A stretch of DNA of 64,000 nt from Actinomycetota bacterium (GTDB taxonomy: Bacteria; Actinomycetota; Thermoleophilia; Gaiellales; Gaiellaceae): NCBI GenBank assembly GCA_003161615.1, contig PMOB01000026.1, positions 31,548 through 95,547 on the forward strand, read 5' to 3'. Positions 8,021 through 30,807 of this stretch are shown in pieces. The position numbers and the translations under genes are program-made. Below the pieces are notes generated by a model. The model saw only the letters and a list, made by a program, of their open reading frames with translations, was not told where the DNA came from and searched no databases. Every line of letters begins with the position of its first letter. The first letter of the stretch is position 1.

Positions 8021-8457
8021 CGTAGTTCCGCCAACTCGTCCCGTGAGCTGACGACGACTGCGTCCTCGCCGAGCGCTTCTCGCACCTCGGCGAGCGTGCC
8101 GACGACCTCGACATAGCGGGACGCGCCCGCATGGGCGAGGGCGAGCTCGGCGAGCTCGCGCGGCGCGTCGGTGAAGGCGCCGACGGGCGCGCCGGCTGCC
8201 GCGAGCCGCCGCAGCGCCGCGTTCGTCTCAGCCCGCGGCCGGAACCAGAGCGGCGCCCGGTCGGCCGCGAAGCGCTGCAGGAGCGGCCGCCAGTCGCCAA
8301 GCGTCTCGTCGAGGAGCGGGGCCGCCGCCGCGCGATCGGTTGGCACGTCGAGCTCGACGCGAGCGCGCCGGGACGCGTCCTCGAGCCACGCATCCCAGAC
8401 CGGGCGCGTATCCGCGAGCACGGCATCGAGGTCGACTGCGAGCGCGGGGCCGGCCAC
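8017..8457 (-). CDS. HAD-like hydrolase
   Basis: GTG at 8457; VDLDAVLADTRPVWDAWL (degenerate HAD motif I) and later GAFTDAPRELAELAL; ATGA coupling with 7793..8020. Confidence 0.6.
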   Translation of the reverse strand: MAGPALAVDLDAVLADTRPVWDAWLEDASRRARVELDVPTDRAAAAPLLDETLGDWRPLLQRFAADRAPLWFRPRAETNAALRRLAAAGAPVGAFTDAPRELAELALAHAGASRYVEVVGTLAEVREALGEDAVVVSSRDELAELR

Positions 8458-8484
8458 CAAGCTCGATGCTAGTGTCCGCCCACA

Positions 8485-8635
8485 AACCGGCGAGCGGTGA
8501 GGGAACTCCGGTGCAAGTCCGGGACGGTCCCGCCGCTGTAAGGGGAGGCGCTCTTCCGCCACGAAGCCACTGGGTCTCGAGACCTGGGAAGGCGGTGGGA
8601 GAGGGAGCCCCGAGTCAGAAGACCTGTCGCCCGCC
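8485..8635 (+). promoter_or_regulatory. Cobalamin (B12, AdoCbl-class) riboswitch
   Basis: GCGGTGAGGGAACTCCGGTGCAAGTCCGGGACGGTCCCGCCGCTGTAAGGG...GCCACTGGG...CTGGGAAGGCGG...GAGTCAGAAGACCTG, with the conserved GCCACTG box, directly upstream of btuF. Confidence 0.96.
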
Positions 8636-8668
8636 GCGAACCCCGAACCCCTCGTGGAAGGAGGATTC

Positions 8669-29180: not shown

Positions 29181-29851
29181 TCACCTCGCGCGACAACGAG
29201 CGGCTCAAGCTGCTCCGCAAGCTCCACGAGCGGCGCTGGCGGGACAAGCTCGGGCTGTTCGTGGTCGAAGGGGAGGATCTCGTCGAGGCCGGCCTGGCCG
29301 CCGGTCTCGAGCCTGCCGACGTGCTCGTCGCGGGCGAGGACGTCGGCGCTGCGCTGCTCGCCGAGGTCTCGTCGCTCGCGCACCCGCCGCGCGTCGTCGG
29401 CGTCTTCCGCCGCGACGACCTGCCGCGCGGCACGCGTCCGGTCACGCTCGCGCTCTGGCGCGTTGCGGATCCGGGAAACGTCGGGACGCTGTTGCGCGCC
29501 GCCGACGCATTCGGTGCCGGCGTGGCGCTCTCTGACGGCTGCGCCGATCCGACCGGGCCGAAGGCACTGCGGGCATCGATGGGAGCGATCTTCCGCGTTC
29601 CGGTCGCCGGCTTTGCCGAGCCTGGCGGCCGGCGCGTCGCCCTCGTGCCGCACGGTGGCACGCCGCTGCCCGAGCTCGCGCCCGGCGGCGACGTCGTGCT
29701 CGTCCTCGGCGCAGAGCGCGACGGCCTGCCGGCCGAGGTGGCCGGGGCCTGCCAGGAGCAGGTCTCGATCCCGCAGCCCGGCGGCGGAGAGTCGCTCAAC
29801 GTCGCGATCGCAGGCGCAATCGCGCTCTACGAGCTGTCTCGCAGCAGCTGA
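29177..29851 (+). CDS. TrmH/SpoU-family RNA methyltransferase; probable CTG start overlapping rplT stop
   Basis: Conserved beginning [L/M][39 protein letters not shown] encoded from CTG 29177; SpoU motifs [38 protein letters not shown]. Confidence 0.85.
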
Positions 29852-29871
29852 AGCGAGGTCTTCTCAGAGGA

Positions 29872-30033
29872 ACAAAAAAAGACCGGCCCCGTTAGGGGCC
29901 GGTCCAAAGAATTCGCCGAGTCCGTTTCGCTTTCGTCCCCCTCATCCAACCGGCCTTCCGACTTAGGATTGCTCCCTTACCGTTTGACCGCTCGGTCGAG
30001 GCTTCGACCTACTCGCGTTCGGTGCTCGGCGCA
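29872..30033 (-). ncRNA. Candidate structured ncRNA; apical motif resembles the SRP (4.5S) S-domain, assignment unproven
   Basis: Minus-strand promoter-like TTGATC-N17-TAGGTT (30068..30040); rod closed by CGCCGAG (30031-30025) and CTCGGCG (29920-29914); central GGTCAAACGGTAAGGGAGCAATCC (29989-29966); 10-bp GC hairpin plus U7 at the 3' end; no convincing ORF. Confidence 0.5.
29874..29904 (-). terminator. Strong intrinsic terminator (minus strand)
   Basis: Minus strand GACCGGCCCC-TAAC-GGGGCCGGTC followed by TTTTTTT (plus-strand A7 at 29874-29880). Confidence 0.88.
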
Positions 30034-30105
30034 AGAGGAAACCTAGGGGATAGTCGACACCGGATCAAGACCCCCCGTCAACGATTTTGTCGCAATTTGC
30101 GCGGA

Positions 30106-30807
30106 TCACTTTCGCGCGGCGATCCAGACGCTGTCCTCGCCTCCGGCGAACGGGCGCCGGTCGAACCAGCCGTAGCACGCGATGACGTCGAAGCCGGCCT
30201 CGGCGAGGAGTGAGTGCCATCGCTCGGGCTCGAGCCACCAGAGCGTCATCGTCGAGGAGCCCGCCGGCCCGCGCACCGAGAGCGTCAGCGTCTGCTCCTC
30301 GAGATCCCAGTCGGCCCGCTCGTCGATTCCGGGCTCGCGCTCTATCCAGCGGCCGTGCGTCTCCTCGATGTCGGCGCGCGACGGCGTGAAGACGTCGAAG
30401 ACGAGCCGCCCGGCCGGACGGAGCAGCTCCCGCGCGGCTCTCAGGGCTGCGAGCCGCTCCTCGTCGTCGCGCAGATGGAGATACGCCCGGAACGGGCAGG
30501 TCACGAGCGAGACGCGCTCGTCCACCGGCGGGTTGAGCAGGTCTCCGAGCCGCAGGTCGAGCCGAGCACCGATGCCGGCCTCGCGTGCGCGCTCCGCGCA
30601 GACCGCGAGCATCTCCGCCGACGAGTCGACGCCGATCACGTCGATGCCGGCCATCGCCGTCGGGATCGCGATGCGACCAGTGCCGACGCCGAGCTCGACG
30701 ACCGGGCCGCCGGCCTCGAGCGCCTCGTCGACGTAGAAGGAGATGTCCTCGATGACGCTCGCGCTCCACGGGTCGTAGAGGCGCGCGATTGCGTCGTACG
30801 CACTCAC
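30106..30807 (-). CDS. Class I SAM-dependent methyltransferase (paralog 2)
   Basis: GTG at about 30807; VSAYDAIARLYDPWSASVIEDISFYVDEALEAGGPVVELGVGTGRIAIPTAMAGIDVIGVDSSAEMLAVC. Confidence 0.88.
   Translation of the reverse strand: MSAYDAIARLYDPWSASVIEDISFYVDEALEAGGPVVELGVGTGRIAIPTAMAGIDVIGVDSSAEMLAVCAERAREAGIGARLDLRLGDLLNPPVDERVSLVTCPFRAYLHLRDDEERLAALRAARELLRPAGRLVFDVFTPSRADIEETHGRWIEREPGIDERADWDLEEQTLTLSVRGPAGSSTMTLWWLEPERWHSLLAEAGFDVIACYGWFDRRPFAGGEDSVWIAARK

Follow-up and report, generated by a model that had tools for sequence, protein, structure and literature searches.

Several described bacterial RNAs invite comparison with the locus analyzed here. 6S RNA (RF00013, SsrS) is a stand-alone, rod-like regulatory RNA, and Ms1 and the actinobacterial 6S-like RNAs are abundant rod RNAs. 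The bacterial small SRP RNA (RF00169) forms a rod hairpin of about 100 nt, whereas bacterial Y RNA is a rod closed by paired ends. The protein-titrating sRNAs RsmX/Y/Z and CsrB occur in several copies per genome and share a palindromic upstream activating sequence (GacA sites). Most classes of near-universal covarying RNA (6S, SRP, and tmRNA) serve core functions. The locus studied lies on the minus strand of a 64,000-nt window (the whole stretch of DNA that was analyzed) from a Gaiellaceae genome (Actinomycetota; Thermoleophilia). It resembles 6S RNA and the 6S-like RNAs in being a stand-alone rod, SRP RNA in its hairpin form, Y RNA in its paired ends, and the Rsm/Csr sRNAs in being multicopy, with each copy behind a shared upstream palindrome.

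Comparison with described RNA classes

A scan against Rfam 15 at gathering score, including the Bacteria_small_SRP and 6S models, gave no match at the RNA gene. The only matches in the window are a tRNA and a cobalamin riboswitch (RF00174, 93 bits) at 8456-8645 on the plus strand. With lenient E-values, the gene has sub-threshold matches only, mostly to its terminator hairpin. A literature search for ncRNA in Gaiella, Thermoleophilia, or Gaiellales found nothing relevant.

The preliminary description of this DNA had noted an SRP-like apical motif and suggested a divergent 4.5S RNA, based on a superficial apical similarity (GGTCA...GGGAGCAATCC). This suggestion is refuted and retains next to no probability, because RF00169 has no hit in the window, a canonical SRP RNA is present elsewhere in the window genome (G000:C33:96180-96277, 65 bits) and separately in all five relatives tested, and the apex is not conserved. 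The motif taken for an S-domain falls where conservation within the RNA family is lowest, and the conserved SRP S-domain motif is missing from the family consensus.

A 6S-like regulator had also been suggested. Membership in the 6S family is rejected, since RF00013 has no hit at the RNA gene or elsewhere in the window and separate 6S candidates occur in relatives. An RNA that exceeds the RF00013 gathering score is present in two of the six genomes tested and has BLAST homologs in many relatives; in the window genome itself, 6S RNA was not firmly found and the candidate is uncertain. Among Gaiellaceae, this distinct 6S-like RNA is conserved (L057, L058, L198-L203; RF00013 up to 48 bits), with an apparently reversed strand in one hit (L060). 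What stands of the suggestion is a 6S- or Ms1-like mode of working, in which the RNA would bind the RNA polymerase holoenzyme or core and repress transcription. The rod shape, the stand-alone gene, and the location of the most common copy near the primary sigma gene are consistent with such a role. However, the large central bubble that mimics an open promoter, a hallmark of 6S, is absent from the consensus rod, which has only small internal loops, and one to six copies per genome would be unusual for 6S. The rod is also much shorter than Ms1 and its actinobacterial relatives. A role of this kind is unlikely.

Two further classes were rejected for lack of their protein partners. A CsrA sponge is untenable because CsrA is absent from the window genome, as it is from eight of ten other genomes, and the rod RNA differs from RsmX/Y/Z and CsrB in having no GGA hairpin loops. 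A bacterial Y RNA was dismissed because the Ro60/TROVE protein was found in none of 11 genomes.

A free-standing RNA gene on the minus strand

The locus forms an independent RNA gene, complete with promoter and terminator (Table 1). All of the promoter, rod, and terminator elements listed in the preliminary description, which proposed a self-contained ncRNA gene, are present. The start predicted near 30033 is likewise supported, as in 104 of 115 distinct copies the conserved first base of the rod follows the end of the -10 hexamer at a distance of exactly 6 nt. In the rod, CGCCGAG (30031..30025) pairs with CTCGGCG (29920..29914), as read directly on the minus strand. The computed fold of the transcript is a single rod followed by the terminator hairpin. 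Compared with dinucleotide shuffles, fold stability reaches z = -5.1 for the transcript and z = -4.4 for the rod alone, and in both cases none of 200 shuffles was as good. A covariance model (R1) was built from 47 copies, and a wider model (R2) was made later; the rod core scores 120 bits with R1, of which the window copy is a training member, and 93.9 bits with R2.

Table 1. Positions of the RNA gene, its internal elements, and its upstream signals in the window.
Feature	Position	Strand	Remarks
Predicted ncRNA transcript	29874..30033	minus	Start about 30033, end in T7; promoter and terminator read directly
Rod-shaped core, 122 nt	29912..30033	minus	Matches covariance models R1/R2; covariation
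Proposed activator site, palindrome CGCAAATTGCG	30091..30101	minus	Centred near -63
-35 element TTGATC	30063..30068	minus	TTG at 16-18 nt spacer in 112/115 copies
-10 element TAGGTT	30040..30045	minus	TANNNT in 113/115 copies; 17-nt spacer to TTGATC
Conserved internal loop, 5' strand AGUAGGUCGAA	30003..30013	minus	Columns 75-100% conserved, 116 distinct members
Apical region, earlier called SRP-like	29966..29989	minus	Poorly conserved, length differs between copies (alignments A1/A2)
Conserved internal loop, 3' strand GGACGAAA	29931..29938	minus	Columns 91-99% conserved
Terminator overall (hairpin and T7)	29904..29874	minus	
Terminator hairpin, 10 bp	29881..29904	minus	Read directly; folds fully
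Terminator T7 run	29874..29880	minus	Read directly

ORFs were called across or at the edge of the interval at 29463-29966 and 30022-30213 on the plus strand and at 30065-30769 on the minus strand. They look spurious, in agreement with the earlier statement that no good ORF occupies the interval, because they overlap, in different reading frames, the genes for the SpoU methylase and the methyltransferases and because the interval evolves as a conserved, covarying RNA.

Distribution, covariation, and internal loops

A BLAST search with 211 nt was positive in 35 of the 61 relatives searched, among them 21 genera of Gaiellaceae, and identified a second copy of the element in the window genome (C16:16700-16853). 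With the covariance model, matches were found in 81 of the 82 Gaiellaceae genomes, each with one to six copies, and, beyond this family, in five genomes of family f2 and three of family f4, in addition to one weak match in family f3. No homolog was found outside the order Gaiellales. The wider model, applied to 398 genomes sampled from the phylum, for which stricter filters apply, returned nothing outside Gaiellaceae. As far as tested, the RNA class is an order-level feature of Gaiellales. Named records that carry the element are MAGs of Gaiellaceae, other Thermoleophilia, or Actinomycetota. One contig labeled Burkholderiales (L119) has two copies in a typical Gaiellaceae context and is probably mis-binned. 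Copies arranged in tandem, 240-300 nt apart, are frequent, and each keeps its own promoter. At three loci (G025:C64:7351-7565, G165:C32, and G170:C73), two rod RNA units lie head to tail with 1 nt between them instead of this usual distance.

Covariation in these homologs is extremely strong. Among 47 sequences (alignment A1, not fitted to the covariance model), compensatory changes were observed at 20 of the 28 predicted pairs. In a larger alignment of 116 distinct sequences (A2), which was fitted to the model and leans towards its structure, 95.7% of cells are paired and 25 of the 28 pairs change on both sides. Two-sided cells in A2 number 475, compared with 135 in shuffles, and the covariation score is 0.474, compared with 0.163. 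In slid controls, with partners moved by 1-3 columns, pairing falls to 24.7-35.5%. This conservation and covariation establish an RNA gene far beyond chance. Of the options raised in the preliminary description, an undescribed rod-like RNA is the one that agrees with these patterns, and the presence of a conserved, trans-acting RNA gene is practically certain.

The conserved bases are nearly all in helices or structured internal loops. In family f2, the closing stem is almost wholly changed (GCGCCGCTCAGGG), whereas the internal loop at the core (AGUAGGNCGAA / GGACGAAA) is retained. A similar UA...GAA pattern is seen in a second internal loop, closer to the apex. The UA element is missing from both loops in a diverged subtype (CCCG-AGGUUGA), which occurs as tandem copies in G033 and also elsewhere. 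Judged by sequence, the two UA/GAA loops may resemble loop-E/bulged-G modules. Of 115 copies, 66 have GGTCC (or GGACC) in the 3' flank, directly behind the U run. A pairing of this post-U-run GGTCC with the GGAC loop was considered and dropped, as loop and tail showed no covariation when examined by eye.

These patterns bear on a base-pairing regulatory sRNA that would act on mRNAs. Many regulated sRNAs have a comparable organization, in which a stand-alone gene is served by a palindromic operator and by a promoter and terminator of its own. However, the rod has no long conserved single-stranded seed, its conserved positions being those of helices and structured loops, and such a role has perhaps a one-in-several chance. 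The loops may alternatively mark a ribosomal-protein decoy resembling 5S or another rRNA, or the scaffold of another housekeeping RNP. The inferred loop-E type of both loops is compatible with this idea, as is the copy in the window's genus that adjoins rpmI-rplT. Other copies lie away from ribosomal genes, and the loop-E geometry derives from base patterns alone, which leaves a decoy or scaffold rather improbable.

Promoter, palindrome, and proposed regulon

About 21-22 nt upstream of the -35 element, the copies have a palindrome of the form CGCNNNNNGCG, most often CGCAAATTGCG. The exact 10-mer core GCAAATTGCG has just two occurrences in the entire window genome, one at each copy of the RNA; this exclusivity was established for the two copies of that genome. 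A dedicated regulator is likely to act at this site. Across 13 genomes, searches with the composite element of palindrome, -35, and -10 returned 22 hits, compared with one for the reversed control, and most hits are rod RNAs. Three others (G033:C1:861477, G101:C51:16228, and G134:C1:2752287; L232, L241, and L244) are followed immediately by a hairpin of 12-15 bp that ends in a T-rich tail; this may be a second RNA, of about 45 nt, and it has no Rfam match. Two more (G029:C2:80467 and G191:C57:6849; L229 and L245) precede a Cys-rich protein of about 60 aa (MSKA..TC.DCYF..AGLCAL), for which no Pfam family was found. An extra palindrome hit at G033:2348127 looks coding and has only 11.5 bits with the RNA model; it was taken as a chance occurrence.

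The presence of the composite promoter at the hairpin RNA and the small protein, in addition to the rod RNAs, points to a dedicated regulon. In a fuller version, one palindrome-binding activator would control several rod RNAs, the ~45-nt hairpin RNA, and the small Cys-rich protein, and this RNA-centered regulon, restricted to Gaiellales, would act on a core cellular machine; that idea is tentative, with somewhat less than an even chance.

Gene context and mode of action

The most common copy is flanked by sigA-uppP on one side and, on the other, by a converging apt-MerR-FHA-RsiG cluster. The window copy occupies a genus-specific place, with rplT/SpoU methylase as one neighbor and, as the other, two methyltransferases near pheST. 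Other copies are scattered, many of them singletons, so that the one to six copies per genome have unrelated gene contexts. The gene thrS lies within a few kb of two f2 copies (L215 and L217) and in the vicinity of the window copy as well.

A cis-acting leader or riboswitch is largely refuted by this context and is very improbable for the class. Two f2 genomes do have one copy that ends about 35-60 nt upstream of the start codon of a same-strand response regulator, and a leader role is possible at these two copies. However, the next gene after the window copy is encoded on the other strand, the neighbors that most copies face are unrelated or converging, and no consistent place upstream of a same-strand gene was found. 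The location of copies at many unrelated places, usually with no gene after them on their own strand, instead suggests action in trans.

The best reading, to be taken with moderate confidence, is a stand-alone, trans-acting, and probably protein-binding RNA that represents a new structured class confined to Gaiellales and is under a dedicated regulator. From a promoter of the housekeeping type, RNA polymerase would begin transcription at the foot of the rod, as the position-locked conservation indicates, and a dimeric regulator on the upstream palindrome may turn this promoter on or up. The RNA folds into one long rod with covarying helices, a nearly fixed core loop, and a second UA/GAA-like loop nearer the tip. 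Acting in trans, as the gene contexts of the copies imply, it may bind one abundant protein through its internal loops and titrate or regulate that protein, with a dosage that may depend on the number of copies and on the shared regulator. Protein binding is proposed because of the loop conservation and by analogy with the multicopy, operator-controlled Rsm/Csr sRNAs and with protein-binding rod RNAs such as 6S; as the mode of action, its chances appear evenly balanced.

The new part is the RNA family, which has no match in Rfam or in the literature found; its mode of action may resemble a known one. Few RNAs are at once near-universal, multicopy, strongly covarying, and under position-locked promoters. 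The rod RNA is confined to one order of abundant, almost uncultured soil Actinobacteria, and both its partner and its regulator are directly testable.
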